In this document: positions 2-37,641 of the stretch, piece by piece
How positions within the stretch are numbered: the first letter of the stretch is position 1
Layout of the letters: every line of letters begins with the position of its first letter
IMG/VR virus record: IMGVR_UViG_3300047476_002078
Coordinates: 1 to 42,801 of that record
Source: a virus
Strand: one strand, 5' to 3'
Length of the DNA stretch: 42,801 nucleotides
Program-made: the position numbers and the translations under genes
The notes under the pieces: generated by a model
Told to the model about the DNA's origin: nothing
Seen by the model: only the letters and a program-made list of their open reading frames with translations
Database searches by the model: none

Positions 2-519
2 ACTGGAGTCCAAGGCGAAACTGGTGTTCAAGGTGAAACAGGAGTCCAAGGCGAAACTGGAGTACAGGGAGCCACAGGCGTTCAAGGTGAAACTGGAGTT
101 CAGGGAACAACTGGAGTCCAAGGAACCACAGGTGTCCAAGGTCAAACAGGTGTTCAAGGTGAAACTGGGGTACAGGGAACAACTGGAGTCCAAGGTCAAA
201 CTGGAGTCCAAGGAACCACAGGTGTTCAAGGTGAAACTGGAGTACAGGGAACAACTGGAGTCCAAGGAACCACAGGTGTTCAAGGAACAACTGGGGTACA
301 AGGAGTCCAAGGTCAAACGGGTGTTCAAGGTGAAACAGGAGTCCAAGGAGCGACAGGAGTCCAAGGAACCACAGGAGTTCAAGGCATCCAAGGAAATACA
401 GGCGTACAGGGTGAAACTGGAGTTGACGGTTACACAGGGGTACAAGGAACAACTGGGGTACTAGGATTTACAGGTGTCCAAGGTGGAACAGGAGTCCAAG
501 GAGCAACAGGTCCAGCTTC
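2..519 (+). repeat. 18-bp coding tandem repeat (collagen GVQGxT unit)
   Basis: About 28 degenerate copies of an 18-base unit of the form GGNGTNCAAGGNNNNACN lie head to tail. Variation is mostly at third codon positions and at the X residue of every second triplet. One slip adds an extra GVQ triplet near 300-311. This is a protein-level repeat prone to copy-number change by recombination. Confidence 0.9.
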
Positions 520-892
520 ATTAGCTAACAATGAAGCTTCTGCCACACTTGATACAACAACAACGAGTAGTTCCGATGTTTTAATGTCAGGAATGACTTT
601 ATCACCTTCGGCAGGTAAATATTTGGTGACTTTTAGTACCGTAATATCTCAAGATACTGTAGGAGCTTCTGTTTTTGTTAGTATTTATAAAGGCGGTTCA
701 CAGGTTTCTGGAAGTGAAAGAGTGATTCAACCTCGTAACTCTACAGGTAACTCAACTTTAAACACTATTCCTGTGGCGGTAAATGCCATAGTAACAGTGA
801 CTAACGGACAGTCTATAGATATTTACTGGAGAACTTCGGGCGGAACAGCAACAGCTAAAGCTAGAATTATTGATATTATAAAAATTGCGTAA
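2..892 (+). CDS. Collagen-like tail fibre protein, 5' end outside window
   Basis: The frame is open from the first bases of the window, so the start lies upstream. From about 2 to 516 it encodes roughly 56 uninterrupted Gly-X-Y triplets, mostly a six-residue unit G-V-Q-G-(E/T/Q/A)-T. The Y positions alternate Gln and Thr, and proline is almost absent (one GPA at the end). A Ser/Thr-rich linker (about 517-583) leads to a beta-rich C-terminal domain of about 100 residues resembling the C1q-like trimeric tips of phage and bacterial collagen-like fibres. Known family role: trimeric host-recognition or capsid-decorating fibres. Seen: repeats and frame continuity. Inferred: trimeric fibre on the tail or capsid. 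The next structural gene starts 13 bases downstream with a GGAG ribosome site, so they are probably co-transcribed. The Thr at Y is a plausible O-glycosylation site given the nearby glycosyltransferases. Confidence 0.9.
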
Positions 893-10819: not shown

Positions 10820-11746
10820 ATGAATTTAAGAAAAATAGCAGGAAGAGTAGCTTTAAAATATGCGGCATCTGGACCATCCTTTGATTACAAATTTAATGAA
10901 GAGGATTCAGAAAAATTAGTGAGAAATCCTAACCCTCACGGTGTTAAGAAAATGGTGACACAGGAATACGCTGATAGATTTTTGGGGAAACAGCCAAAAA
11001 AATCTCCTGTTGAAAATAAACCTGCTCCTTCAACAATTTCTAAAGCTAAAGAAAATAAGGAAAGAGTAGAAAATCAGAAAAAAACTAATCAAAAGCACTC
11101 GAATGGGATGAATAAACCTGAATACAATAAAAAGGGTGCTGAAGTAACAAAAGATGAATGTGTTTCTTTTATTAAAGAGTTTCACCCTGCTTTTGAAGAA
11201 GCCGCTTCATGGGGAGAAGGGTTTAAAAAATCAGGAGCGATGAGTTTTTCAGGAAGATTAAAAGACGAAAATTCTCTACATGATAAAATGAAAGGAAGAT
11301 TCAAAGAAAGAACTTTGAATTCGGCAGGGGATATTGTAGGAAGTAGAGCTATTTGCAAAAATATGAACGATGTTAAAAAAATCATTTCTCATGTTTATGA
11401 CACTTATGATGTTTTAGAACACGATGATAGTGTAGAAGAAAAAGTAAGACCTGAAGGGTACAGAGCACATCATTTTACAATCAAATCAAGTGATGGTAAA
11501 TTAATTGAACTTCAAGTTAAAACGCAAAATCAACAATTATGGTCAGGGTACACACATGACACAATTTATAAAGCTGAAGACCCTGAAATAATACAAGCCA
11601 AGCCAGATATAGATAAATATACTAAAGCAGTTAGTGACTATATTTATGCTGTGGATACTGGCAAAGACCCCGGTTCTTTTCCAGAAACTCCAGAAATATT
11701 AAAAAAGAAAAATTTAGCTTTCCCTGCTAATGACATAGTGAGATAA
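10820..11746 (+). CDS. RelA/SpoT-type nucleotidyltransferase (alarmone synthetase-like)
   Basis: 308 residues in three parts. Residues 1-16 form a basic amphipathic peptide (MNLRKIAGRVALKYAA). Residues 20-115 are a low-complexity Lys/Asn/Pro linker. Residues 115-280 form a RelA_SpoT synthetase domain: SGRLK (144-148), GDIVGSR (170-176, matching the conserved D-x-x-G-x-R), YRAHH (214-218, usually YRSLH) and ELQVKT (230-235, usually E-V-Q-I-R-T with the catalytic Glu), then an H246. No HD hydrolase or TGS/ACT domains are present, so it resembles a small alarmone synthetase or a toxic pyrophosphokinase that modifies nucleotides or tRNA. Expected effect: transfer of pyrophosphate from ATP, slowing host translation or metabolism. 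The N-terminal peptide resembles that of the ADP-ribosyltransferase at 39196. Confidence 0.75.
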   Translation: MNLRKIAGRVALKYAASGPSFDYKFNEEDSEKLVRNPNPHGVKKMVTQEYADRFLGKQPKKSPVENKPAPSTISKAKENKERVENQKKTNQKHSNGMNKPEYNKKGAEVTKDECVSFIKEFHPAFEEAASWGEGFKKSGAMSFSGRLKDENSLHDKMKGRFKERTLNSAGDIVGSRAICKNMNDVKKIISHVYDTYDVLEHDDSVEEKVRPEGYRAHHFTIKSSDGKLIELQVKTQNQQLWSGYTHDTIYKAEDPEIIQAKPDIDKYTKAVSDYIYAVDTGKDPGSFPETPEILKKKNLAFPANDIVR

Positions 11747-11750
11747 GAAA

Positions 11751-11963
11751 ATGAAATACTATCTAGTTATAAGAGATAAAAAAAATAAAAACTTAGACGT
11801 AAAAGAATATCCTACCATGAAAAAAGCTTCCGCAGTAAAAGAAGCTATGCTTAAAAGCGGTCATGAAGGGCAATTAGTAATAGGTTACGGAAGCTCAATG
11901 AATGATTTTTTAACATCATTTACAGAGTATCGACCAAAAAATTGGAAAGATTTAATTAAGTAA
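11751..11963 (+). CDS. Hypothetical 70-residue protein downstream of RelA/SpoT gene
   Basis: Starts 4 bases after the RelA/SpoT-type gene, so it is certainly co-transcribed. Small, basic, alpha/beta: a strand-forming start (MKYYLVIRDKK), a helix around 22-36, a strand LVIGYG, and a helical end. No family is recognised. Because small alarmone synthetase toxins are often paired with a small neutralising partner, an antitoxin or chaperone role can be imagined, but nothing in the sequence shows it. Its last 8 bases overlap the convergent acetyltransferase gene. Confidence 0.5.
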   Translation: MKYYLVIRDKKNKNLDVKEYPTMKKASAVKEAMLKSGHEGQLVIGYGSSMNDFLTSFTEYRPKNWKDLIK

Positions 11964-12573
11964 TTTTTTTGGCAGGTATTCCAACATAAATACCACTTTC
12001 TGTTAAATTTTTGACAACTGCGGATTGAGCACCAGTAATTACATTTTCTGATATACAAATTTTTTCTCGAACCGCTGTTCCTGTTCCCAAAGAGGAATAT
12101 TTTCCGATAACTGTGTTACCTGAAATGTGACAGCCCGGATTTGCTGTTACATAATCATCAATTACTGCGTCGTGCCCAACAGTACAGTTAAGATTCAAAA
12201 CAACGTAATCCCCGATTTTAACATTAGTAGTGATTATACACCCTGCGGTTATAATCCCTCCTACACCTATATCAGCATCTTGAACTAAAGCTTTTGGGTG
12301 AACAAATGTTTTCATTGGCTTTAATCCGCTTTTCAATGCTTTTTCTACCATTATTTTTTTAACTTCGGGATTACCTACACCGATTATAAATTCAGCATTT
12401 TGAAATGAATCAAAGTTCCAATTTTTAACAACCTTGTAACTTTTATTTTTTATAATTATTTCTTCAATATTTGTGAAATCATCCACAAAAATAAAATCAG
12501 CATTAAAAGAATCTAAGTGAAAAAAGACTTCCCTTGCAAATCCCCCTGCTCCAAGAATAACTATGTTTTTCAT
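11956..12573 (-). CDS. NeuD/PglD-like sugar O/N-acyltransferase
   Basis: 205 residues. Residues 1-80 form the small Rossmann-like N-terminal domain of the NeuD/PglD family (IVILGAGGFAREV at 4-16). Residues 95-205 are a left-handed beta helix with hexapeptide repeats (IGVGGIITAG, IGDYVVLNLN, VIDDYVTANPG, IGKYSSLGTG) and the conserved NCTVGHD (catalytic His about 134). Known role: acetyl-CoA-dependent acylation of an amino- or sialic-type sugar nucleotide. It overlaps by 4 bases with the upstream aminotransferase fusion. That pairing is the classical order for making a 4-amino then 4-acetamido sugar (compare PglE/PglD). The preceding dehydratase is not in the window and may come from the host. 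Confidence 0.85.
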   Translation of the reverse strand: MKNIVILGAGGFAREVFFHLDSFNADFIFVDDFTNIEEIIIKNKSYKVVKNWNFDSFQNAEFIIGVGNPEVKKIMVEKALKSGLKPMKTFVHPKALVQDADIGVGGIITAGCIITTNVKIGDYVVLNLNCTVGHDAVIDDYVTANPGCHISGNTVIGKYSSLGTGTAVREKICISENVITGAQSAVVKNLTESGIYVGIPAKKIT

Positions 12574-14654
12574 GAAAGAGCCTCAATAATTCCATTGAAA
12601 ACTTCATCCATTTCTTCATTTGTAATAGTTTCGTAAAACGGTATGCACAATATTCTGTCTGACATGTTTTCAGTTTTTGACAAGTCGTTAAATGCCAAAT
12701 TATCTTTGAAAAAAGGCTGTGCGTGAATAGGTATGTAGTATATTCTGGTGTTAATACCTTTTTTGTTCAAAGATTCAATAACTAAATTTCTTTCTTCTTT
12801 ATTTGATAAAATAATAGGGTAAACCTGATAACCTGAATTAATATTTTTAATTGTTTTTATTGAACTTGTAGAAAATTTTTGTTGATAGTAATCGTGTTTT
12901 TGCTTTTTAATATTTATTTTATTTTCAATAGTATCCATAACAGATAGACCTATAGCAGCATGAAATTCAGAGCATTTTGCATTTGTACCCGATAAGGTTG
13001 AAACATTATTGGTAAAACCAAAATTTATAATTTTTCTGCATTTCTCAATAAAATTTGAATTTTTACTGGTCACTAAGCACCCTTCACCAATACCAAAAGT
13101 TTTGGTTATATGCAGACTGAAAATTTCGCAATCTCCTGCCGACCCTAATTTTGTTTCGTCACTGTACGATGCTCCAAGTGCAGCCGCCGAATCAAAAATT
13201 AAAATTAATCCATGTTTATTAGCAAAGTCTTCGTACTTTTTATAATCACATGTGTAGCCGAGAGCCTGAACGACAATCATGGCTTTTGTATTGGCAGTTA
13301 ATTTTTTTTCTGCGTTTTTAATACATAAATGAATACCTTCTTCTTCAATATCAACTAAGACAGGATTACATTCAGCGTTTAATACAGAATGTGCTGTAGC
13401 AGAAAACGTAAAAGATGGAATTAAAATATCACAGTTCTTTAAATCATGTGCTTTTATAGCAACAGTTAATCCTATTGTTGCGTTATTCATTAAAACTGGG
13501 ACATTATCAAGATTGAGATAGGACTTGAACCTTTCCTCTAACATTTTTACACAGGGTCCGTTGTTAGAGAATGTATTTGATTCATAGGAATCTACTAAAT
13601 ATTTAGCCCAATCTTTGATTTGTGGTGGGTTAGGTTTTAAAACAGGTATCTTTAAAAAAAGATCAGAGTCATCAAAAAATTTACTGGCGTAATTTGGCAA
13701 ATTTTTAATGTCGAATCTTTCGTATCTTTCAGAGATTTCTAAATTCACTTTAGAATTTATCTGAATTTCACTTAAAGCAGAGCTAGATATTATTGAATTT
13801 GGGACATTTACTGTAAAATGGTCTTGTTCTATTTTGTAAACATTCAAACTTAACCCATTAACTGAAATAGAATCTTCTATCTTTAAATCAGCTAGTATCT
13901 CTGGGCAAGAAATTATAAATTCTTTTGATTCCTCTAAGTTGTTAATTGAAGATACAGTCCCTATATTTTTGATTTGACCAGCAAACATATTTCCCTTCCT
14001 ATTTTGTATATCAACCCCAAATATAGGGTATTTATCTAAATCTTTGAAATGCCATCCGATTATTTCACCATTAGATAAAGAATTTGATCTTAAATTATCT
14101 ACGTTATTGACCGTAAAATGAAAAAGAGGGTCAAAATTCTTTTTTAGACACATTAAATTTTTACTATCTTGAATATTATTTTGAATTTTCAAATTTAAAA
14201 AATATCTAAAATTTTGGAGCTTGAAAACAATAGGCTCCTGATTATCTGTAAATAAAGCATGAGCTTCTCTTGTCCAACTCATTAATGTTTGATTATTAAA
14301 AACGATATTATCTTCGGAGAGTATGACAATATCTTCCGGTTGTGCAGAAGATAGAGCTTCTGACAGTTTTGAATAGTGGTGCGTTAAATTTTCAACAAGT
14401 GAATTTTCTGAAGGTAAGTCTATGACGCTGTACAAAATTTTATCTTTATACTTATCAAAAATGTCTTTATTTTCTTCAAACAGTAGAGCTTTCGGCTTTC
14501 CGTTATAATCTTGGTTACATTCTACGAAAACAAAATAATCAACGATGGAAAGTTCATAAACTAATGTTTCTAAAACTGTTAGGGTATGTTTACCGTAATT
14601 TACAATAGGTACACATAAAAAAACTTTTTTTCCAAATTTATTGCTTAATTCCAT
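12570..14654 (-). CDS. Glycosyltransferase - lumazine-binding barrel - DegT aminotransferase fusion
   Basis: 694 residues in one open frame. About 8-210: GT17-like glycosyltransferase (KVFLCVPIVNYG, VDYFVFVECN, EDIVILSEDN). About 223-312: a single riboflavin-synthase-type lumazine-binding barrel, starting MFAGQIKNIGTV (family MFTGIVE...GTV), then ILADLKIEDSISVNGLSLNV (family NG-x-C-LTV; here Ser replaces Cys), FTVNVP and SKVNLEIS. About 345-694: DegT/DnrJ/EryC1 PLP-dependent sugar aminotransferase, with FDSAAALGA (Asp488) and SLHITKTFGIGEG (Schiff-base Lys518). The third domain should aminate a 4-keto sugar nucleotide, and the next gene could acetylate it. The middle barrel's job is unknown. 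A GAGGT ribosome site precedes the ATG. Confidence 0.8.
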   Translation of the reverse strand: MELSNKFGKKVFLCVPIVNYGKHTLTVLETLVYELSIVDYFVFVECNQDYNGKPKALLFEENKDIFDKYKDKILYSVIDLPSENSLVENLTHHYSKLSEALSSAQPEDIVILSEDNIVFNNQTLMSWTREAHALFTDNQEPIVFKLQNFRYFLNLKIQNNIQDSKNLMCLKKNFDPLFHFTVNNVDNLRSNSLSNGEIIGWHFKDLDKYPIFGVDIQNRKGNMFAGQIKNIGTVSSINNLEESKEFIISCPEILADLKIEDSISVNGLSLNVYKIEQDHFTVNVPNSIISSSALSEIQINSKVNLEISERYERFDIKNLPNYASKFFDDSDLFLKIPVLKPNPPQIKDWAKYLVDSYESNTFSNNGPCVKMLEERFKSYLNLDNVPVLMNNATIGLTVAIKAHDLKNCDILIPSFTFSATAHSVLNAECNPVLVDIEEEGIHLCIKNAEKKLTANTKAMIVVQALGYTCDYKKYEDFANKHGLILIFDSAAALGASYSDETKLGSAGDCEIFSLHITKTFGIGEGCLVTSKNSNFIEKCRKIINFGFTNNVSTLSGTNAKCSEFHAAIGLSVMDTIENKINIKKQKHDYYQQKFSTSSIKTIKNINSGYQVYPIILSNKEERNLVIESLNKKGINTRIYYIPIHAQPFFKDNLAFNDLSKTENMSDRILCIPFYETITNEEMDEVFNGIIEALS

Positions 14655-16167: not shown

Positions 16168-16809
16168 ATGATTAGTATTATTACAAGCGTAAATGACCAA
16201 GAGCAATATGAACAATTTATGATGCCTAGTATGAACAGGCTTCAGAAATTTCTTATGGATTCTAATCTTCCTACTCTGGATATAGTAAAAGTTTCTGGTT
16301 CAGAGTCTATCGGCAAGAATTACAATGAAGGCATAAGAAAAGCCATCTACAAGGTAAAAGTTTTTATTCACCAAGATGTAGATATGCTAGAAATAGATTG
16401 GGCTTTTAAACTTCTAAAAATTTTTGCTGATTACCCAGATGTGGGATTAGTAGGATTGGTAGGAACCGTAAATTTTCCGAATAGAGGGTTTTGGTGGACT
16501 TCTGGAAGAGAATTTATTCGTGGAGAGCTTTGGTCAGGAAAAGAAAAAGCTGATTGGACTTTTTTGCCTGTGATTGCCCCGACAACAGTAGAATGTATTG
16601 ATGGCTTTTTCATGGCAACAAATAGAGACATTCTATGGGATGAGGACATTAAAGGTTTTCATTGTTATGATATGGACTACTCTCGTACAATTACTAAAAA
16701 CGGTTTAAAAATAATGGTCATGCCTCATAAATCTTGGCATATTGGAGAAATTCGAGAGGCAAAACACGAGCATTTATTTGAAACTTACTATAAAAAATGG
16801 AATTTATGA
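16168..16809 (+). CDS. GT-A fold glycosyltransferase (family 2-like)
   Basis: 213 residues. Starts with the strand MISIITSVND; VFIHQDVDMLEID (Asp70-Val-Asp72) is the DxD metal/nucleotide-sugar motif. WWTSGRE, ECIDGFFMATNRD and HCYDMDYSRTITKNG follow the acceptor-side pattern of short GT2-like enzymes, and W-H-I-G near the end is typical of the C-terminal His. No membrane segment, so a soluble enzyme. It heads an operon: the next glycosyltransferase begins in the ATGA overlap at 16806. Donor and acceptor cannot be predicted. Confidence 0.8.
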   Translation: MISIITSVNDQEQYEQFMMPSMNRLQKFLMDSNLPTLDIVKVSGSESIGKNYNEGIRKAIYKVKVFIHQDVDMLEIDWAFKLLKIFADYPDVGLVGLVGTVNFPNRGFWWTSGREFIRGELWSGKEKADWTFLPVIAPTTVECIDGFFMATNRDILWDEDIKGFHCYDMDYSRTITKNGLKIMVMPHKSWHIGEIREAKHEHLFETYYKKWNL

Positions 16810-17717
16810 AAATAGCAGTTTTTTGGGGTGGAAGACATACTTTGCCCGGTGCTTGCGATGAAAATACTTGGTACAGTTTTTACAATTCTGGTTGGAAGTA
16901 CGGATTTGAAAGTTTAGGGCACTCTGTACATTATTTTTCATGGGATGACCATGAAGATAGATCAGGATATGATCTTTACATTTACGCTCCGGGGTTTTTA
17001 ACAAATTTAACTTATCATCCAAAAATTTATCATCCGAACGTATTTTTTACTGAAGAGGCTAGTTGTGCAGTTTCTTGGGCGGCTTCTCACAGTTACTACT
17101 ACGATGCGGTCACATTTCTTGATTACATAAATTGGAAAGCTGTAAAACATATAGGCGTTAATAACGCATATTGGGTGCCCGGTGCAGTTGACCCGACAGT
17201 GTTTAAAAATTTGAATCAGGAAAGAATATATAATACAGCGTTTTTAGGTTCTTATGATGATAATGTTAAAATCATTAATGGTAAGACACGATTAGATTTT
17301 ATACGAGCTATTGACGCTCATAATAAACCTTCAATGGTAGCCAGAGGTTATTACGCATTTGAAGCTAATAAGATTTGGAATGTTACTAAAATAGGTGTCG
17401 ATGTACCGATAGTTGAGTTCTGTTCTTTTAGACTTTTTCAAATAATTGCGTCAGGGGCTTTCTGTATTACTCGAAAAACTAGATTGGATAGTGGAATATC
17501 ACAACTTCTTGAACCTGATATGTATGACACTTATAACGACATAGATGATCTTGTTTTTAATGTAGCTCCGTATTGGATAGTTAAAGACCAAAAACGGGAG
17601 AAACTATGTAAGACTGCTCAAGAGTTTGTTCTCCAAAATCATACTTTTAAAAATCGTGCAGAGCAAATATTAAAAATAGCTGGTCTTATGGAAGGAAAAA
17701 TTCCGTATCAAGGATAA
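16806..17717 (+). CDS. GT4/CgeB-like GT-B glycosyltransferase
   Basis: 303 residues from the ATG at 16806, which overlaps the stop of the preceding gene (ATGA); an in-frame ATG at 16797 is possible but less likely. MKIAVFWGGRHT starts a GT-B N-terminal Rossmann strand. NAYWVPGAVDPTVF and the later FRLFQIIASGAFCITRKT with YNDIDDLV follow the CgeB/GT1-like C-terminal signature, where an E/G-A region binds the donor nucleotide. Probably transfers a sugar to a phage or host surface glycan. Operon with the gene before and the small gene after. Confidence 0.75.
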   Translation: MKIAVFWGGRHTLPGACDENTWYSFYNSGWKYGFESLGHSVHYFSWDDHEDRSGYDLYIYAPGFLTNLTYHPKIYHPNVFFTEEASCAVSWAASHSYYYDAVTFLDYINWKAVKHIGVNNAYWVPGAVDPTVFKNLNQERIYNTAFLGSYDDNVKIINGKTRLDFIRAIDAHNKPSMVARGYYAFEANKIWNVTKIGVDVPIVEFCSFRLFQIIASGAFCITRKTRLDSGISQLLEPDMYDTYNDIDDLVFNVAPYWIVKDQKREKLCKTAQEFVLQNHTFKNRAEQILKIAGLMEGKIPYQG

Positions 17718-17722
17718 CTATA

Positions 17723-17953
17723 ATGGCATCTCCTTATGAAAAAGAGGTAATTGATATTCTTTTAAAAACAAAAGGAAAAGCTGTGTGCTTTTTGGTTTTG
17801 GATGGCTCAAAAGGAACTAGCTTTGAAGTAAGGTCTGTTGATGAAAAATACATGCGGAGTCTGCCAAAAATTTTAATAGAAATAGCCAGTAAAATTGAAG
17901 GCGAATTGAACGAAAAAGATTTAAAGAAGAAAATGGAAAATTTAGATGTTTGA
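17723..17953 (+). CDS. Hypothetical 76-residue protein
   Basis: Alpha/beta, charged; residues 20-35 form a strand-turn-strand (VCFLVLDGSKGTSFEVRS) followed by two helices. No family is recognised. It lies 5 bases after the GT-B glycosyltransferase, and its last 8 bases overlap rmlC, so it is an operon member. There is no transmembrane segment or cysteine motif. Confidence 0.5.
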   Translation: MASPYEKEVIDILLKTKGKAVCFLVLDGSKGTSFEVRSVDEKYMRSLPKILIEIASKIEGELNEKDLKKKMENLDV

Positions 17954-18575
17954 TCTTAATTATCAAAACCCTTATAATCCTTACGTAACTAAGACTCAAG
18001 AATTTGGAAATTTTAAATTTGAGAGTTTATCCATAGAAGGTTTAGTTATTATTACTCCTAAAATCTATGGAGACAGTAGAGGCTACTTCCTTGAAACTTA
18101 TAATGAATACGCATTTTTAAACGCTGGGATACCTACACAGTTTAAACAAGATAATCAAAGTTATTCAAGTAAAGGTGTACTTAGAGGGATGCACATACAA
18201 AACCCTACCTTTCAAGGAAAGCTTGTAAGATGTAATAGCGGATTAGTTTATGATGTTGCAATTGATTTAAGAAAAGGTAGTAAAACTTTTGGTCATTTTG
18301 CTGGAATTTTATTAGACCCGAAAATTAAAAATATGTTCTATGTTCCTGAAGGATTTGCACACGGGTTTTTAGCTTTAGAAGATTCTGAGTTTGTTTATAA
18401 ATGCTCTGAAACTTGGAAACCTAACGAAGACCTCACGGTTTCTTATGATTGTTTTGGTGCTCCTTGGTTAGATATTGCGAATAAATACGATATTTCAGAA
18501 TTTTTAACTTCTGTTAAAGACCGCCAAAATGCTATTAGTGTTGAACAATATCGAGTAATGTACTGCTTGGAGTAA
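17946..18575 (+). CDS. rmlC: dTDP-4-dehydrorhamnose 3,5-epimerase-like protein
   Basis: 209 residues. Cupin core with the family's landmarks: DSRGYFLETYNEYAF (43-57), QDNQSYSSKGVLRGMHIQ (68-85, catalytic His83), GKLVRCNSGLVYDVAIDLRKGS (91-112), FYVPEGFAHGFLAL (131-144) and Tyr151. Known reaction: epimerisation at C3 and C5 of a dTDP-4-keto-6-deoxy sugar. RmlA, RmlB and RmlD are not in the window, so it either uses host intermediates or acts on a related keto sugar, possibly one linked to the DegT/NeuD pair. A 20-residue N-terminal extension precedes the domain. It overlaps the upstream gene by 8 bases. Confidence 0.9.
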   Translation: MFDLNYQNPYNPYVTKTQEFGNFKFESLSIEGLVIITPKIYGDSRGYFLETYNEYAFLNAGIPTQFKQDNQSYSSKGVLRGMHIQNPTFQGKLVRCNSGLVYDVAIDLRKGSKTFGHFAGILLDPKIKNMFYVPEGFAHGFLALEDSEFVYKCSETWKPNEDLTVSYDCFGAPWLDIANKYDISEFLTSVKDRQNAISVEQYRVMYCLE

Positions 18576-28934: not shown

Positions 28935-29159
28935 ATGCAAAAAGATGATGATTTTAGAAGAATTACTTCTATGCCTTTAGCTAAAGCGTTAAAAAATCCT
29001 CATACCGCTTCGGACTGGCTGGCAGAAAAAATGAATCTTGAACCACATCAAGTACATATTTCAAAAACAAGTGAAGATGAAATGGATACATATCTTGAAG
29101 GTTCATTATTGCTTCAAGGGGTTTCCTCTTTTAATTTTAAGGTCAAAATAAAAAAATGA
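28935..29159 (+). CDS. Hypothetical 74-residue protein
   Basis: Acidic helical N terminus (DDDFRRITSMPLAKALKN) with a small C-terminal strand pair. AGAGGT ribosome site just upstream; the last 4 bases form an ATGA overlap with the glycosyltransferase that follows, so translation is coupled. No family is recognised. Confidence 0.45.
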   Translation: MQKDDDFRRITSMPLAKALKNPHTASDWLAEKMNLEPHQVHISKTSEDEMDTYLEGSLLLQGVSSFNFKVKIKK

Positions 29160-30295
29160 TAGCAGTTGTTCTTTCTGAGAAAAACGAATGTCAAAAAAGA
29201 TTAGCTTTCGTAAAATCTAAATTATACCAAAACGGTTTAAATTGTATCGTTATTCAAGATATTTGGGAAATGGAAAAATTAATCCCTTTTCTTTACTCAA
29301 TTGGGGACTTCCCTTTTTTGTTTTTTAAAAGTCCTTGGGAATGGATAGAAAAACCAAAAGAGATATTAGAGTTTCATGCCTCTAACACAGGATTCGACAG
29401 TGTAGTTGTTAGTGGGGATATTGTTACTTATATTCCATCAAGAGTGACTGTATTTCGAGATACTCTTATTAATTTTAAACAATTATATAACCAAGAGTTT
29501 TATAATTTTTATGCAAAAAATTCTCAAAAAGTAATTGATAAGCCAAACTATGCCCCTCACATATTTTTGACTACACATAATAGACATACCTATTTAGAAT
29601 TAACCCTAAACTCGCTTTTATTTAATGTGAGTGAGTCAACTCCAATAACTTTATTACTGAATGAACCTACAGAAGAAGTTTACAAAACAGCGTTAAAATT
29701 TTCTCAAAAAAGACAAATTGAAATTTTACATATAGAAAAAAACTCATTCTATTCTTCAATAAATTTAGCTGTTCAGTGGTATAACCCAGACATATTTATG
29801 GTATTTGAGGATGACTTTATCCTGCCTCCAACGGCAAAAGAATATTATCCAAATTGGGAGTATCATTTTGCCAGAAGGTTACAAGAATTTGACTTAGTTG
29901 GTTGGAGTCCTATTTTAGATAATGGTCCGACAATTCATAGATTACCTAGAATAGAATCAAAGCCTTTTGGTCAGTGGTATTACGGAAATAAATCTGAAAA
30001 ACCTTTACTATTAGGCAACGCTTTAATGATTAGAAAAAATTTTTGGTTAGAATCTTTAAAATTTATGGCTGAATCAGGGGATGAGAATAAATGGTACACT
30101 CCGCTAGATCACACGTTACATAAAAATGCTAAGAAATATTGTATGCCTAGTTTAAGAGGTTATCATATCGGATGGAATCAAACTTTGGATTATAATTTTA
30201 AAGCTCCTACAAATTTTGACCCTCCTTTAAAAAACACAGTTACTAGCATAAATACGGGTGAAAAAAGAGAGTTCAACTTACAGGATATTCTATGA
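29156..30295 (+). CDS. GT-A fold glycosyltransferase
   Basis: 379 residues. Residues 1-125 are a phage-specific N-terminal part of unknown function. From about 130 the GT2-like enzyme starts with PHIFLTTHNRHTYLELTLNSLL, then VFEDDFILP (Glu218-Asp219-Asp220, the metal/nucleotide-sugar motif), LLGNALMIRKNFWLES and PLDHTLHK, then YHIGWN near the end. It sits in a tight operon: 4-base ATGA overlaps on both sides (29156 and 30292). Donor and acceptor cannot be predicted. Confidence 0.8.
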   Translation: MIAVVLSEKNECQKRLAFVKSKLYQNGLNCIVIQDIWEMEKLIPFLYSIGDFPFLFFKSPWEWIEKPKEILEFHASNTGFDSVVVSGDIVTYIPSRVTVFRDTLINFKQLYNQEFYNFYAKNSQKVIDKPNYAPHIFLTTHNRHTYLELTLNSLLFNVSESTPITLLLNEPTEEVYKTALKFSQKRQIEILHIEKNSFYSSINLAVQWYNPDIFMVFEDDFILPPTAKEYYPNWEYHFARRLQEFDLVGWSPILDNGPTIHRLPRIESKPFGQWYYGNKSEKPLLLGNALMIRKNFWLESLKFMAESGDENKWYTPLDHTLHKNAKKYCMPSLRGYHIGWNQTLDYNFKAPTNFDPPLKNTVTSINTGEKREFNLQDIL

Positions 30296-31086
30296 AAATA
30301 TTCATAGGTTTTGATAACAATGAGGCGGAAGCTGCCAAAGTGTGTGAATATTCTTTACGTAAAAACTCAAGTTCAGAATTAGATATAGTTTTTTTAAACA
30401 TTCATAATTTGAATTTTAATCGACCTTTAGACCCGTTGCAATCAAGCGAGTTCACATATACTAGATTTTTAGTTCCTTACTTGTGCGGATATGAAGGTAG
30501 AGCTTTGTTTATGGATTCGGACATGATTGTTCTTTCAGACATAAATGAGTTATTTGGTTTGTATGACCCGAATTATTCAATTCAAGTAGTAAAACATGAT
30601 TATGTTCCCACCCAACAAATAAAAAAAGGCAACAAAATACAGTCAGCTTACCATAGAAAAAATTGGTCTTCCTTAATGATGATGAATTGTGGAGATTTAA
30701 AAATATGGTCTAAAGATTATGTTGAAAAATCTACAGGTTCAGATTTACATCAATTTTTAGGTATCCGTGATGATAAAATTGGAGCTATACCAAAAAATTG
30801 GAATAGCCTTGATATTTTTGAGTCTGACACAAAAATACTTCATTTTACGTCTGGAGGTCCTTGGATTAAAGGTTGTGAAAATCATCCTGAATCGTATTTG
30901 TGGCTTCAATACTGGAAAGATATGTACAAAGATGGAATTAGAAGTGTTTTATCCGCTTACGATTGGAATAATATTGATAGTAATGTTTTCTTTAAATGGT
31001 GTGAAAATAAAAGGAAACAAGATATTTCCCCAGACAAAATATCATTCGTAGAGTTTGTCAGAGAGACGTTAAGTAAATTGTTATGA
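30292..31086 (+). CDS. GT8-family glycosyltransferase
   Basis: 264 residues. Canonical GT8 layout: MKIFIGFDNNEAEAAKVCEYSL (donor loop), FTYTRFLVPYLCGYEGRALFMDSDMIVLSD (Asp75-Ser-Asp77, the DxD), then NCGDLKIWSKDY, and KILHFTSGGPWI as the His motif near the end. Expected: retaining transfer from a UDP sugar, the chemistry used in lipooligosaccharide and glycogenin-type synthesis. The last 44 residues (about 221-264) are a separate acidic/basic helical tail whose motif recurs as a stand-alone gene at 32762-32968. Overlaps of 4 bases on both sides. Confidence 0.9.
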   Translation: MKIFIGFDNNEAEAAKVCEYSLRKNSSSELDIVFLNIHNLNFNRPLDPLQSSEFTYTRFLVPYLCGYEGRALFMDSDMIVLSDINELFGLYDPNYSIQVVKHDYVPTQQIKKGNKIQSAYHRKNWSSLMMMNCGDLKIWSKDYVEKSTGSDLHQFLGIRDDKIGAIPKNWNSLDIFESDTKILHFTSGGPWIKGCENHPESYLWLQYWKDMYKDGIRSVLSAYDWNNIDSNVFFKWCENKRKQDISPDKISFVEFVRETLSKLL

Positions 31087-31832
31087 ATCATATTTTTAAT
31101 AAATGCTACCTTCAAATATCCTCAGATTTTAATTTAGAATACATTAAAAAACAGGATTGTGTTTTATTTTCAGATAAGTACAAGTTCATAGATTATTTTA
31201 ATACTGCTATAGGATGTTCAAATTCATTGGTAGCTTGGAAAGGAAATAGCTTATTAGATTTAGTTAAAAAAGGCACAAGCGTTGCCACTTTTGTAAAAGC
31301 TTTAAGTGAATACGAGTCAGATAAAGACCTTCTCGTTTTTGGTGACATTGAAGACATAGCATTAATAATTTTGCAGACTATTAAATCTCTTACAAACTTA
31401 GATTTAAAGCAATTTTGGAGAGTTTGTGAAAAACAATATTTTCCTGTTACTATATCTGAAGATAGGCTAGAATTTTTAATTTCTTTGATAGAGCCTGTTG
31501 AAATTAAAGTAAAACGATTGTCTCCTGAATTTATGTACGCCGATTTTTTATTCAGAAATGACTCAACTTCAAAACAAGAGTTTTTAAAATTTTTTAATTT
31601 TTGTAATAATCACCAAATCAAAAAAAATTACAAATTAGGTCAGATATTTTACAGAGAAAATTTGTGGAAAGATGATTCTTATAAAAATTTTATCACAGAA
31701 AACTCACCTCAAGAAGTTATAACTGAAAACATAGAAAGAGAATGGTATTCCAACATAGATGTTATCGAATTAAATAAACATGTTTTAAAGTACATAGAGA
31801 GTATAAATGGTTTTGAAGTGCTTAGGCGATAA
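31083..31832 (+). CDS. Unidentified protein of the glycosyltransferase operon
   Basis: 249 residues, alpha/beta, no enzyme motif found. It starts in an ATGA overlap with the GT8 gene. A segment near 107-139 (FWRVCEKQYFPVTISEDRLEFL) resembles the tail of that GT8 protein (FFKWCENKRKQDISPDKISFV), suggesting a shared small module. Possible roles: a glycosyltransferase accessory or a degenerate GT. The last 26 bases overlap the next gene. Confidence 0.55.
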   Translation: MNHIFNKCYLQISSDFNLEYIKKQDCVLFSDKYKFIDYFNTAIGCSNSLVAWKGNSLLDLVKKGTSVATFVKALSEYESDKDLLVFGDIEDIALIILQTIKSLTNLDLKQFWRVCEKQYFPVTISEDRLEFLISLIEPVEIKVKRLSPEFMYADFLFRNDSTSKQEFLKFFNFCNNHQIKKNYKLGQIFYRENLWKDDSYKNFITENSPQEVITENIEREWYSNIDVIELNKHVLKYIESINGFEVLRR

Positions 31833-32034
31833 ATGTAAAGAGTGTCCAAATCACACTGAACTTTTGGATAATCTGGAAAAAATTGATACCTGCATTGATG
31901 GTTGTATAGGGTTGAAACCTTATTTTATAAATTTCGATAAAAAGCCACTTGAAGAAATACAAGCAACTTTTTCGGATGGAAGAGTAACTGACTTTGAATT
32001 TAAACTTATGCCTCCAGTTTTTAGGAGCATTTAA
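31807..32034 (+). CDS. Small cysteine-containing protein
   Basis: 75 residues. The ATG lies 26 bases inside the preceding gene; no later start in frame is plausible. Cys at 5, 10, 13, 29 and 33 in C-L-GDKCKECPNHT and CIDGCIG could bind metal. Ends in two beta strands (EIQATFSDGRVTDFEFKL). No family is recognised. The next gene follows 3 bases later. Confidence 0.45.
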   Translation: MVLKCLGDKCKECPNHTELLDNLEKIDTCIDGCIGLKPYFINFDKKPLEEIQATFSDGRVTDFEFKLMPPVFRSI

Positions 32035-32037
32035 AAA

Positions 32038-32517
32038 ATGAAAATTTTTGATTGCTTCATGTTTAATAATCAGATTGAAATTTTTAACAAAAGAGTCGAA
32101 AAACATTTTGATTATGTAGAAAGCTTTGTGATAGCTCAAGGAAAATTCAATTACGACGGTTCAGAAAAAGAATTTGTAGATTTATATGGCAAAAAATTAA
32201 CTCATATAATTAATGAAGAGAGAATAAGCTCCAAGACAATTCAACGTAATTTAATTATGAAAGGATTAGAAAAATGTAATTCTGAAGACATAATTATTTT
32301 TTCAAGAATAAATGAGTTTGTTGATTTTGATAGATTATTACCTTTTATTAAAGTTTTAGATTTTTTTCCAATATCTTTAGGATTATCAAACAGAGGTAAT
32401 CAAGCCGGACCTATAGTTACAAAGTACAAATATTTAAAATCTTTTACCCTGTCCCAATTAAGGAACCAAAGAAATTTTTTGTTAAAATTAGAAAACGGCT
32501 CTTTTTATGAGAATTGA
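32038..32517 (+). CDS. GT17-like glycosyltransferase, short form
   Basis: 159 residues. The N-terminal MKIFDCFMFNNQIEIFNKRVE and FVIAQGKFNYDGSEK motifs match the start of GT17 (beta-1,4-mannosyl-glycoprotein GlcNAc-transferase-like) domains. EDIIIFSRINEFVDF follows the same order as in the N-terminal part of the 12570-14654 fusion (EDIVILSEDNIVF). The protein is shorter than usual (about 280 residues), and its stop falls 10 bases into the next gene, so it could be a truncated enzyme or part of a split protein with the 90-residue product that follows. AAAAA precedes the ATG; no clear ribosome site. Confidence 0.65.
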   Translation: MKIFDCFMFNNQIEIFNKRVEKHFDYVESFVIAQGKFNYDGSEKEFVDLYGKKLTHIINEERISSKTIQRNLIMKGLEKCNSEDIIIFSRINEFVDFDRLLPFIKVLDFFPISLGLSNRGNQAGPIVTKYKYLKSFTLSQLRNQRNFLLKLENGSFYEN

Positions 32518-32779
32518 TGGTAATTATTTATTTTTAGACCATATTGGAATTATGGATTCCATAATTTCTAATTTACATTCTTCTTATCATAAAATGATAT
32601 TAAGTTTTCAAGTACAGATTTCTGTTGATTGTTTTTTTATTCCGAACGATTGTTTAGATGAAGTAAAACAAATGCTTTTAAATGTTTCTCAGGAAACAAT
32701 TCCAATTAATTTATCAAAAGACATAAATAACGATATATTTAGACTTAAAAAACAAGAACACTTATTGGTTCGGTGGTAA
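32507..32779 (+). CDS. Hypothetical 90-residue protein, maybe second half of the GT17-like enzyme
   Basis: Begins inside the end of the previous gene (11-base overlap) in another frame. Residues RIDGNYLFLDHIGIMDSI could be the C-terminal part of a GT17 enzyme whose frame shifted, but I see no slippery run at the junction and cannot prove it. Ends QEHLLVRW, overlapping the convergent small gene by 18 bases. Cysteine and hydrophobic content are normal. Confidence 0.4.
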   Translation: MRIDGNYLFLDHIGIMDSIISNLHSSYHKMILSFQVQISVDCFFIPNDCLDEVKQMLLNVSQETIPINLSKDINNDIFRLKKQEHLLVRW

Positions 32780-32968
32780 ATTTTCTTTAATGTAAGGATA
32801 AATTAATTCGTAGATGTAATTAGGATAACTAAGTAAACTGGGGTTAATTCCTTCTTTTTTCTTAGATTCTACCCACTTGTAAAATTCATTATTTTGAGGC
32901 TCGTCCCAATTATAGCAGCTATAAATTTTTTTTATTATGTCTTCTAGTAAAATTACTTTTTCATTCAT
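32762..32968 (-). CDS. Stand-alone copy of the GT8 C-terminal tail module
   Basis: 68 residues. SCYNWDEPQNNEFYKWVESK (17-36) with INPSLLSY after it aligns with SAYDWNNIDSNVFFKWCENK and ISPDKISF, the tail of the GT8 enzyme at 30292. The match covers S-x-Y-x-W, F-x-KW-x-E-x-K and I-x-P-x4-S. It is encoded on the opposite strand inside the glycosyltransferase cluster. This could be a small module that docks these proteins to each other or to a target. The start codon lies 14 bases from the divergent glycosyltransferase. Confidence 0.55.
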   Translation of the reverse strand: MNEKVILLEDIIKKIYSCYNWDEPQNNEFYKWVESKKKEGINPSLLSYPNYIYELIYPYIKENLPPNQ

Positions 32969-32978
32969 ATAATATAAT
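32968..32978 (+). promoter_or_regulatory. -10 boxes abutting start at 32983
   Basis: Two overlapping TATAAT hexamers (32968-32973 and 32973-32978) precede the ATG at 32983 by 9 and 4 bases. No ribosome site is present between. It lies next to the divergent small gene, whose start codon ends at 32968. Leaderless candidate. Confidence 0.5.
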
Positions 32979-32982
32979 TGTG

Positions 32983-33699
32983 ATGCAAAATGGGAAAACT
33001 CTTATATTTACTATAGCTTTTAATCGTCTTGAGATGATTAAATTTTCTATTTTAAATGTCGTCACTCATGCTAAAAACGCTCGTTTTGTAATATGGGATA
33101 ATGCTAGTGATCGAAAGCTTTTAGACTTTTGTCGGTACATTGTTAAAAATAACACTGAAAAGTCCCTCGAAATATTATACTTCGCATCAAAAAATATTGG
33201 TTTAAACGCAGCTAAAGAGATAGTTGAAAAATTTTCTGAGGGTTGTGAATTTATCATGAGTGTAGATGAGGATATTCTGTATCTACCTTTTAATTTTCAA
33301 TCTGATCTTCAATACTTACTAAAACAACAAGTTAAACCTTTAGGTTATGTGGCGTGTAATGTAATTCAAGATAAATTAACTAATGGTGCTAAACCTCCAG
33401 AAGATAGCTATCAAGAAATTGATGTAGGCTTACCTATTTTAATCGGACCTACCGGCGGATGGGCTTCCATGACAACCTCTTCAGTATATCAAAAAATAGG
33501 AGGATACTCTCAATCTAGCGAGGGCTTCTATGGTCTTGATGGTCTTTTTAGCAAAAAATGTCATGACAATGGTTTGTACACGGCGTTATCAAAAAATACT
33601 ATTTGTTATCATGCTACAGGTCCAAAATGGAATCATTATTTTAACTACGGTCAAATATATGATAAAAAATTAGAGATGTTTAAGAAATCAAAAACATGA
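32983..33699 (+). CDS. GT2-family glycosyltransferase
   Basis: About 238 residues; GTG at 32980 is an alternative start 3 bases earlier. GT-A motifs: LIFTIAFNRLEMIKFSI, RFVIWDNAS, NIGLNAAKE, SVDEDILYLPF (Asp-Glu-Asp near 95-97, the DxD-type site), then PTGGWASMTTSSVYQKIGGY and YGLDGLFSKKCHDNG, CYHATGPKWNH near the end. Soluble. Its last 4 bases overlap the phosphoesterase gene (ATGA). Acceptor unknown. Confidence 0.85.
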   Translation: MQNGKTLIFTIAFNRLEMIKFSILNVVTHAKNARFVIWDNASDRKLLDFCRYIVKNNTEKSLEILYFASKNIGLNAAKEIVEKFSEGCEFIMSVDEDILYLPFNFQSDLQYLLKQQVKPLGYVACNVIQDKLTNGAKPPEDSYQEIDVGLPILIGPTGGWASMTTSSVYQKIGGYSQSSEGFYGLDGLFSKKCHDNGLYTALSKNTICYHATGPKWNHYFNYGQIYDKKLEMFKKSKT

Positions 33700-34902: not shown

Positions 34903-35652
34903 TTATACCTTGTTTAAAGTTTTTCCCATGATATTGTCTATATATCCAAACTGACAACTAAGTGTGAATCTTTCTTTTTCACATTTCATTGGATGCACTT
35001 TATGAAGAAGTCTTGGGTTCATATTGTCTAGTGTAATTAAAGTTCCGTGATTTGGTAAAACGTCTGCCAGAATACTAATTATTTCTTTTGGAAGACCTTT
35101 ATCGTCAATAGAACAATCAGATATGCTGAGATAGCCTCCATCGTTTTTAGTAAAATCTGAATCCCCTAAATACAGAATGTTGTTAAACCATGTCGAATCA
35201 GACAGATCATGATGCCATCCCAAGCTCTGATTTAATTTGTATTTGTGTGCTAACATGTAGCGATGGGTAAAATTACCATATATTGAAGTAAACCAATCCA
35301 TAGAATTTTCTACATTGAGCCAAAATTCCGTAAACATTTCAGGATAGTTATTGAAAGGTCTTTCAGATGAGTGCGGTCCATTAACCCCATTGACCCAAAT
35401 ATCTGGATGTTTTACTTCTTTCCAATCAAAACTTAGAGACTTTTTTAAATCTACATTAAAATCTGGTTCAATGACCTGACCGTTAGATGCTAGGTAATTT
35501 TTGGATTCGTAAACATCAAAAACATTTCCAGCATCAACAAAAACTTCGCTTTTTAAACAATTGAGTAGTTTGTCGGAATTTTCTTTTTTTAATTTCCTTA
35601 CAACAAAACCTTTTGAAAAAAAGTGATCTAAGTCAAATTCATCCTCGAACAT
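34903..35652 (-). CDS. 2-oxoglutarate/Fe(II) dioxygenase (P4H-like), paralogue 1
   Basis: 249 residues. Double-stranded beta-helix with complete iron ligands: His147 and Asp149 in GWHHDLSDS, His217 in NPRLLHKV, and 2-oxoglutarate-binding Arg228 in EKERFTLSCQFGY. DGGYL (171-175) and LPNHGTLIT (199-207) complete the prolyl-4-hydroxylase-type pattern. Expected: O2- and 2-oxoglutarate-dependent hydroxylation of a protein or small substrate. Last gene of a minus-strand trio overlapping by 14 bases each. N-terminal motif FDLDHFFSKGFVV is shared by all four copies. Confidence 0.85.
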   Translation of the reverse strand: MFEDEFDLDHFFSKGFVVRKLKKENSDKLLNCLKSEVFVDAGNVFDVYESKNYLASNGQVIEPDFNVDLKKSLSFDWKEVKHPDIWVNGVNGPHSSERPFNNYPEMFTEFWLNVENSMDWFTSIYGNFTHRYMLAHKYKLNQSLGWHHDLSDSTWFNNILYLGDSDFTKNDGGYLSISDCSIDDKGLPKEIISILADVLPNHGTLITLDNMNPRLLHKVHPMKCEKERFTLSCQFGYIDNIMGKTLNKV

Positions 35653-36328
35653 ATTTTTTAGTCTCTTTGTTTATTACATTATTGAAGTATCCTAGCTGAC
35701 ATACAAGGGCATAACGTGTTTTATCAGAAAAAAGCTTTTCAACTTTATGCAAAACGCTTGGGTTATAATTTGATATGGTAACAAGTGTTCCGTGATTTGG
35801 TAGAATTTTTATTTTACTTTCTACAGTGTCTTTTATTGGAATACCTTTCCCTGTTATATTACAGTGTCCTACCTCTAAATAACCTCCATCTTCAAGTTTC
35901 CATGTGTCGTCGGTAAGATATAATATGTTTAATAGAAGTGTCGCATCCGTTACATCGTAGTGCCATCCCATGCCATCATCTTTATTGTATTTATGAGCCA
36001 TGATTGTTCTATGGGTAAAACTTCCATAAAGTTTTGGAAACCATGAAAAGTATTCGGATTCAGATAAATTCTTCCAAAAATCTTGAAATAAATTAGGAGC
36101 GGAATTGAAAGGGCTTTTCTTGTCCCATAGAGGAGCTTTGGGGTGTATAATCCCATCCCAACTTTCTTTTAAAGCAACACTCGAAGGATTATCTAAAGAA
36201 TAGACATCATCTTCTTCAATATAATCATCTTTTTTTATAGCTTGTAATAATTGATCTGCCTCAGATTTATCAATTTTGGTAAATGTAAATCCATCACGAA
36301 AAAAATTATTTAGATTAAATTTTTCCAT
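35639..36328 (-). CDS. 2-oxoglutarate/Fe(II) dioxygenase (P4H-like), paralogue 2
   Basis: 229 residues, middle of the trio. Ligands: His123, Asp125 (GWHYDVTDA), His194 (NPSVLHKV) and Arg205 (KTRYALVCQLGYF). DGGYLEVG and LPNHGTLVT present. N-terminal FNLNNFFRDGFTF. A GGAGC ribosome site is present, and the start overlaps the end of paralogue 3 by 14 bases. All catalytic residues are intact, so it should be active. Confidence 0.85.
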   Translation of the reverse strand: MEKFNLNNFFRDGFTFTKIDKSEADQLLQAIKKDDYIEEDDVYSLDNPSSVALKESWDGIIHPKAPLWDKKSPFNSAPNLFQDFWKNLSESEYFSWFPKLYGSFTHRTIMAHKYNKDDGMGWHYDVTDATLLLNILYLTDDTWKLEDGGYLEVGHCNITGKGIPIKDTVESKIKILPNHGTLVTISNYNPSVLHKVEKLFSDKTRYALVCQLGYFNNVINKETKKYVRG

Positions 36329-36896
36329 ATAAATGCTCCAAAAATCCCGTCTGGCAAGATAAAGCTATGCGTGTTTTTTCCGATTTTACCGTAGATACCT
36401 CATGTAATATACAAGGATTTAAGTTATTAATTGTAACTAAAGTTCCGTGATTAGGGGAAATCTTTTTTAATACTTTGTAGGAGCCGTTATTTTTCCCATC
36501 GTTATTTATGTTGCATTGAGAAATAATTAACTCTCCTCCATCTTCAGGATAAAAAGTTTCATCTGTTAGATATAAAATACTTAATATAAAAGACCTGTCT
36601 AAAACATCATTATGTGTTTCCATAGCTTCACCTATTTCATAACGATGTGCAATAATATTTTTGAAAGAAAAATTTCCAAATAGTTTAAAAAATGCGTATG
36701 AGTTTAGACGTTTATGCCAATAGTAATCAATATCTTTATTATAAAAGTTAAGGCATGTTTGATTTCTTAAATACCCTTCAGATTTTTCTTCATAAGAATA
36801 GTTTAACTTTTTTGCTTCTTTTAGTAGCAAGTCAGCGTCGGATTTATCTATTTTTTCAACGCAGTAACCAAATTTAAAAAATAAGTTTATATCCAT
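36315..36896 (-). CDS. 2-oxoglutarate/Fe(II) dioxygenase (P4H-like), paralogue 3
   Basis: 193 residues, the shortest copy; it lacks about 40 residues between the N-terminal motif and the core. Ligands: His95, Asp97 (ETHNDVLDR), His165 (NPCILHEV) and Arg176 (KTRIALSCQTGF). DGGELIIS and SPNHGTLVT present. First gene of the minus-strand trio; TATAAT lies 9 bases upstream of the ATG, so the mRNA may be leaderless or nearly so. Confidence 0.85.
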   Translation of the reverse strand: MDINLFFKFGYCVEKIDKSDADLLLKEAKKLNYSYEEKSEGYLRNQTCLNFYNKDIDYYWHKRLNSYAFFKLFGNFSFKNIIAHRYEIGEAMETHNDVLDRSFILSILYLTDETFYPEDGGELIISQCNINNDGKNNGSYKVLKKISPNHGTLVTINNLNPCILHEVSTVKSEKTRIALSCQTGFLEHLYGKI

Positions 36897-36905
36897 CTAT
36901 ATTAA

Positions 36906-36911
36906 ATTATA
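36906..36911 (-). promoter_or_regulatory. -10 box for the dioxygenase trio
   Basis: Minus-strand TATAAT ends 9 bases before the ATG at 36896. The gap between the divergent starts is 49 bases. Plus-strand TATGAT at 36929-36934 would serve the fourth dioxygenase. Confidence 0.5.
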
Positions 36912-36945
36912 ACAACAAACGTCGTAGATATGATAGGTTTTAGTA

Positions 36946-37641
36946 ATGTTTTACGGTAAATTTGACGTAAATTCTTTTTTTAAAAATGGTCACACCGTCG
37001 GTAAACTTGATGATAATACTTCAGATTATTTGTTGAATTTGATTGAAAAAGAAAAATTTGCACAAGCTGAACAAAAGAATCTATTTTTAGACAATCCAGA
37101 TCACCCAGATGCTAAATTAGAGTATCCTGAAATATGGACAGAAAACGGAAATATCGTACAAGCTTTTTCTCGCCAAAATTACAACCCTGAATTGATACAG
37201 TTTTGGAAAGAATTTTCAGATAGTAACTTAAAATGGTTTAAAGATTATTTTGGCTCATTTGATGATATGACTATGTTAGCTCATAATTTTAAAATTAATA
37301 ATGAGATAGGTTTTCATACAGATTACATTGAAGCTTCTTATTTAGGGGTCATTGTTTATCTTGGGGATAGAAATTTCACGAAAGATGACGGAGGGTATTT
37401 GGAATTAGCTAAGTGCAAAGTAGATAATGAGGGAACGCCTCTAATCGACACAGTTCAAGTATTAAATCAAATTTTGCCTAATCACGGTACAGTGGTTTTT
37501 ATATCTAATACAAATCCTTGTTTCATGCACAGAGTTGTTCCATTAAAGTCTTGTAAAGTAAGAATTTCGCACGCCTGTAGATTCGGTTTTATTGCAAATA
37601 GAGTTAGTAAGAAAAATTTACCGAATCACGGGTATTTATAA
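36946..37641 (+). CDS. 2-oxoglutarate/Fe(II) dioxygenase (P4H-like), paralogue 4
   Basis: 231 residues, divergent from the other three. Ligands: His124, Asp126 (GFHTDYIEA), His195 (NPCFMHRV) and Arg206 (KVRISHACRFGF). DGGYLELA and LPNHGTVVF present; N-terminal FDVNSFFKNGHTV. Separate strand and promoter allow different timing from the trio. Start is about 11 bases after TATGAT; no clear ribosome site. Confidence 0.85.
   Translation: MFYGKFDVNSFFKNGHTVGKLDDNTSDYLLNLIEKEKFAQAEQKNLFLDNPDHPDAKLEYPEIWTENGNIVQAFSRQNYNPELIQFWKEFSDSNLKWFKDYFGSFDDMTMLAHNFKINNEIGFHTDYIEASYLGVIVYLGDRNFTKDDGGYLELAKCKVDNEGTPLIDTVQVLNQILPNHGTVVFISNTNPCFMHRVVPLKSCKVRISHACRFGFIANRVSKKNLPNHGYL

Follow-up and report, generated by a model that had tools for sequence, protein, structure and literature searches.

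A phage gene that joins a degenerate GT17-like domain, a riboflavin-synthase-type barrel and a DegT aminotransferase in one chain

A single gene of a 356-kb phage encodes a degenerate domain of the glycosyltransferase family 17 (GT17) type, one barrel of the riboflavin synthase type and a DegT aminotransferase in one chain; this is a new domain architecture assembled from known parts, and it is real and present in single copy. The gene lies in the window, the whole stretch of DNA analysed (42,801 nucleotides), which is the first 42.8 kb of a virus record of 355,874 bases (IMG/VR record IMGVR_UViG_3300047476_002078). Computation shows the architecture, the descent from an N-barrel, the lost residues, the genes of the pathway and the signal for an internal start; the enzyme activity, the substrate and the scaffold role are inferred. 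In the reading that we tentatively prefer, and whose chances we put a little below even, a live DegT domain would make a viosamine precursor, and the barrel and a pseudo-GT17 domain would be retained as structural modules. Features of the gene, in window coordinates, are as follows.

12570..14654, minus strand: fusion ORF, 694 aa (putative pseudo-GT17, riboflavin-synthase N-barrel and DegT aminotransferase)
13989..14654, minus strand: GT17-like GT-A domain, residues 1-222, truncated and degenerate (Pfam, AF2/Foldseek)
14307..14315, minus strand: E114-D115-N116, where GT17 has an invariant DxD (alignment)
13994..14000, minus strand: AGGAAGG, Shine-Dalgarno-like, before Met223 (anti-SD energy, recoding test)
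13731..13988, minus strand: single barrel of N-barrel descent, residues 223-308 (Pfam, NCBIfam ribE, profile comparison, AF2 and Foldseek)
13842..13850, minus strand: S269-L270-N271, replacing the C48-L-T50 active-site motif
13641..13730, minus strand: linker, residues 309-338, between the Pfam/PDB-alignment domain limits
12573..13640, minus strand: DegT/DnrJ/EryC1/StrS aminotransferase domain, residues 339 to about 692-694 (Pfam, PDB relatives)
13101..13103, minus strand: K518 (HITKTF), PLP Schiff-base lysine by alignment

The initial annotation had placed an ORF at 12570-14654 and left its strand unstated. The ORF is real and lies on the minus strand, where the frame runs unbroken across 14654..12570 from an ATG to one stop; the plus strand over 12570-14654 is stop-rich. 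The three domains assigned to it are borne out by Pfam, as all three matches score over the curated cut-offs: GT17 at residues 28-124 (E=1.6e-7 with the full chain; E=1.7e-8 and 34.4 bits versus a cut-off of 26 when searched with the domain alone), Lum_binding (PF00677) at residues 226-307 (E=8.9e-12, 45.3 bits versus a cut-off of 27) and DegT at residues 349-688 (E=4.9e-74, 250 bits versus a cut-off of 19.8, profile positions 7-358 of 360). Lum_binding and DegT each match once in the whole 356-kb record, both times inside the fusion. AlphaFold2 models were built domain by domain.

The DegT domain is the only one of the three that keeps its catalytic residue, K518, which aligns with the Lys of 2po3; 2po3 and 3ju7 are its best PDB relatives. 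With this PLP Lys present, an E1/RfbH-type dehydrase was ruled out. The best NCBIfam models are PseC (182/423 bits) and DesI (171/650 bits), both under the equivalog cut-off, so the 4-amino product and the dTDP specificity are uncertain. Genes of a fitting sugar pathway are found at two other positions in the window.

11956..12573, minus strand: NeuD/PglD/VioB-family sugar N-acetyltransferase (TIGR03570, E=8e-45, 152.9 bits versus a cut-off of 160.8)
17946..18575, plus strand: RmlC, dTDP-4-dehydrorhamnose 3,5-epimerase (TIGR01221, E=4e-54, over the cut-off)

The acetyltransferase start overlaps the stop of the fusion gene by 4 bp (ATGA), and the pair looks like VioA/VioB, known from flagellin viosamine (PMC3927599). 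An RmlA-like nucleotidyltransferase, RmlB (328/365 bits) and RmlD (over the cut-off) are encoded at record 229385-232044 (L014:9385-12044), so that the whole dTDP-L-rhamnose route is phage-encoded, with RmlA/B/D and RmlC at two places in the record. As the RmlA/B/C/D genes are present, the presumed substrate, dTDP-4-keto-6-deoxyglucose, is probably available from phage enzymes. The phage RmlA and RmlB would supply this nucleotide, the DegT domain, with PLP on K518, would turn it into dTDP-4-amino-4,6-dideoxyglucose (viosamine), which is its most likely activity, the exact product being the less certain part, and the overlapping downstream acetyltransferase would N-acetylate the viosamine nucleotide. 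The domain shares its full-length fold and PLP lysine with DesI, PseC, VioA and mimivirus L136, and a VioB/PglD-type acetyltransferase neighbour together with RmlA/B in the genome likens the phage to 4-aminotransferase systems, but it differs from these enzymes in its 338-residue N-terminal extension with two domains and in scoring below the equivalog cut-offs. In mimivirus, the enzymes behind the rhamnose and viosamine precursors include a PLP aminotransferase that is a dimer and a PglB-like acetyltransferase that shares one protein with a glycosyltransferase (PMC9614988). Its R141/L136/L142 set resembles the phage in combining a viral 4-keto-6-deoxyglucose nucleotide, an aminotransferase, an acetyltransferase, a fused enzyme and collagen-like proteins (PMC9614988), whereas the phage sugar genes are of the bacterial RmlABCD type and no barrel is described in mimivirus.

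The N-terminal domain is probably a pseudo-glycosyltransferase, judging by its alignment with GT17 relatives. Its AlphaFold2 model (pTM 0.78) matched GT-A folds in Foldseek, including SpsA and LH3, and the N-terminal half has the VDxFVxxE..K..FEENK and GWH motifs in common with GT17 (MGAT3-like, in many viral contigs). Other GT17 proteins keep DxDE and the internal and C-terminal segments, but these have been lost here: DxDE, invariant in 25/25 phage GT17 homologues, reads E-D-N-I (E114-I117), Thr has replaced an invariant Glu close to the N-terminus, and one internal segment and ~80 C-terminal residues are missing. The initial annotation had suggested that the barrel may simply oligomerise the sugar enzymes; with its DxD gone the glycosyltransferase domain is itself degenerate, and several working enzymes are not what the chain contains. 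The domain lacks its metal/sugar-nucleotide motif and probably has no role beyond holding the enzyme in place or binding a glycan or a partner. A second GT17-like gene, at window 32038-32779, appears divided between two overlapping ORFs of 159 and 90 aa and is possibly broken. Glycosyltransferases are otherwise numerous (families 2, 8, 9, 17 and others; window 16168-17717, 29156-33699 and 41513-42466; L020:3440-7256), two of them large and adjoining a collagen-like ORF.

The boundary between this domain and the barrel carries a candidate internal start. Met223, which corresponds to Met1 of riboflavin synthase, is preceded by AGGAAGG-GAAAT-ATG, with an anti-SD energy of -6.9 kcal/mol; of 958 internal in-frame phage ATGs 2.1% reach this value, and of 224 phage ORF starts 17% do. 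Among the nine internal Met codons compared, this one has the strongest site (synonymous recoding P=0.033). This constitutes moderate evidence for either a shorter barrel-DegT product of 472 aa from Met223 or a remnant of a gene that once stood alone, and such a product is likely enough to be considered within the preferred reading. The same site, placed at the ancestral riboflavin-synthase start and set beside the loss of the GT17 catalytic motif and C-terminal part, would also fit a recent chance fusion, in which loss of a stop codon fused a dying GT17 gene with one for barrel and DegT, leaving the N-terminal part without function and Met223 as the real start. We consider this unlikely, though well worth weighing: the upstream start of the fusion ORF is also well equipped (GAGGT, -7.1 kcal/mol), 222 codons have stayed open with typical codon usage, and they are predicted to form a GT-A fold.

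The barrel is a descendant of the first, N-terminal barrel of riboflavin synthase. Its extent, read in the initial annotation as one barrel from MFAGQI to VNLEIS, holds in a gapless alignment with riboflavin-synthase N-barrels, and profile searches return riboflavin synthase for the segment; besides the Pfam match, residues 223-309 align to positions 1-88 of NCBIfam ribE, i.e. to the first of its two barrels (E=3.7e-14). Barrel profiles were made from 80 riboflavin-synthase loci collected from bacterial genomes, 75 of which were split into N- and C-barrels. The phage barrel, ungapped over 85 columns, scored 86 bits against the N-barrel profile and 46 bits against the C-barrel profile, a gap somewhat inflated because the loci were fetched by an N-barrel pattern. 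Descent from the C-terminal barrel, in which Ser is normal and GHLMSGHI resembles the GNMFAGQI of the phage, was ruled out by these scores. The top Foldseek match of the AlphaFold2 barrel model was 1PKV, the riboflavin-synthase N-domain (E=7.5e-6, rmsd 1.5 Å, TM 0.93 by target length). Riboflavin synthases (RibE/RibC; 1PKV, 1I8D) thus have the N-terminal barrel fold and MFxG start in common with the phage barrel, and bacterial ones are 32-43% identical to it in the ungapped 85-column alignment, but they carry two tandem Lum_binding barrels per chain against one in the phage, and end in a C-terminal helix that forms the trimer (PMC10366380) where the phage chain continues into the linker and DegT. 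In a set of 297 genomes from a single bacterial phylum, 284 gave matches and 282 of these had exactly two barrel matches, and the listed Lum_binding frames were all of 196-280 aa; the extra matches in the other two genomes were extra riboflavin-synthase copies or fragments.

Riboflavin synthase keeps C48, T50, E66, T67 and an Arg after VNLE, whereas the phage barrel, fused to sugar enzymes, has lost them all. The Cys-to-Ser change first noticed in the active site is correct relative to the N-barrel (C48 to S269), and it is accompanied by T50 to N271, E66 to S287, T67 to I288 and Arg to I307; Cys and Thr stand at the C48 and T50 positions in 75/75 riboflavin-synthase homologues. T3 (A225) and E7 (K229) are also changed, at positions whose invariance is biased by the search pattern. 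Scaffold residues are retained, e.g. F2, G4, G10, N44, G45, N82, L83 and E84. With its conserved chemistry and ligand residues lost, the barrel appears very unlikely to catalyse riboflavin synthesis.

Two roles had been offered for the barrel at the outset, flavin binding or oligomerisation. The second, as a scaffold, is the better supported, since Thr50, Glu66, Thr67 and the Arg are gone besides Cys48, there is no second barrel, and the 356-kb phage record holds no lumazine synthase gene. DegT enzymes act as dimers, e.g. mimivirus L136 (PMC9614988), and the isolated riboflavin-synthase N-domain is a homodimer (PMC10366380), so a barrel placed before DegT could strengthen or space the dimer. 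In the preferred reading the barrel would most likely be a dimerisation or spacing module that fits the DegT dimer.

Lumazine protein (LumP, Photobacterium; 3a35, 3ddy) is the relative that bears on the first of these roles. It is dead as an enzyme, has Ser for Cys48 and a fold similar to that of the phage barrel, and 3a35 is the best PDB sequence match of the latter (E=3.6e-13). It has lost several of the same residues yet binds lumazine, keeping Thr50, and its isolated N-half binds lumazine as well (PMC8272222). A barrel with its fold intact could thus still bind flavin or lumazine as lumazine protein does, and act as a sensor or cofactor domain that regulates the aminotransferase or is redox-coupled to it. 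We regard this as rather improbable, although for the role of the barrel it is the chief competitor of the scaffold view. Lumazine protein binds through Ser48, Thr50, Ala66, Asn101 and Ile102 (PMC8272222), of which the phage barrel has Ser48 only: Asn replaces the Thr50 that riboflavin synthase and lumazine protein both retain, the alignment puts Ser at the Ala66 site, and the region of Asn101/Ile102 is missing. LumP has two barrels and a bioluminescence context, in contrast to the single fused barrel here, and the phage has no gene for lumazine synthase. Redox coupling is opposed by the Lys kept in DegT, which speaks against an E1-type dehydrase needing electrons from a flavin partner. Little credence is given to a combined form, in which the barrel is a flavin/lumazine sensor gating the aminotransferase and the internal start yields two products, with and without the pseudo-glycosyltransferase.

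It is more doubtful still that all three domains work, with GT17 transferring the 4-amino sugar made by DegT and the barrel tethering synthase and transferase. The mimivirus protein L142, which fuses a glycosyltransferase to a viosamine acetyltransferase (PMC9614988), offers a precedent and the GT-A fold is kept, but the altered DxDE and N-terminal-side Glu argue against transferase activity. An assembly artefact joining separate genes has an almost negligible chance: the fusion is a single example with no relatives by DNA or protein search, but one frame is open over both junctions, GC, GC3 and codon usage are similar across the three domains and near the phage average, which speaks against a misjoined contig, and a collagen-like frame continues in phase from one end of the record to the other, which points to a coherent circular assembly.

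The two halves of that collagen-like (Gly-X-Y) frame comprise 2814 codons at record 347433-355874 (L020), running off the record end, and 296 codons at window 2-889 on the plus strand, entering at the record start; the collagen-like frames hold 62 Pfam Collagen matches. Their in-phase join makes it probable that the record is circular and that the fibre measures ~3,100 aa. Four 2OG-Fe(II) oxygenases are clustered at window 34903-37641, and ORFs resembling them recur in L004, L007, L010, L013, L014, L016 and L017; these might be hydroxylases of the collagen-like fibre. Also present are two large ORFs that carry a PARP (ADP-ribosyltransferase) domain at the C-terminus (window 39196-41187 and L006:6873-9050), a RelA/SpoT-type domain in a 308-aa phage protein (window 10820-11746), a terminase-like ORF of 905 aa with an apparent intein (L011:12265-14982; Hint and LAGLIDADG-like matches) and, near each other, three radical SAM proteins with SPASM-like C-termini, related to peptide-modifying enzymes (L010:16702-18911 and L011:437-1522).

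The initial annotation knew of no such fusion, and no second example of the full architecture turned up in IMG/VR, in phage or plasmid collections or in the 297 bacterial genomes; its rarity holds for the collections searched. Searches with the whole protein, the N-terminal part and the barrel against 2.9 million IMG/VR contigs, and with the whole protein against GTDB genomes, returned no relative, both by exact peptide seeds that miss distant relatives. An alignment search of IMG/VR with the N-barrel gave two loci, 39-40% identical over the barrel. The terminase relatives, at 69%, 49% and 36% identity, are fragments in which nothing matches the fusion, and the phage DegT relatives L024, L025, L027, L120 and L121 are plain aminotransferases without a barrel. 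Every plasmid barrel match that fell over an annotated gene was a riboflavin synthase; several others lay where an incomplete gene table has gaps, and four records carry no annotation. In the collection of papers searched, none on such a fusion turned up.

Barrels in the sampled genomes belong to two-barrel riboflavin synthases, and the known relative without enzyme activity is lumazine protein; within a sugar enzyme, a single barrel would put the fold to a new use, and the fusion would be a naturally occurring example of one live enzyme served by two dead ones. The genes suggest that the phage produces rhamnose and amino-deoxysugar precursors of its own alongside a giant collagen-like protein, a combination that parallels mimivirus fibrils and the BclA glycoprotein of Bacillus spores.
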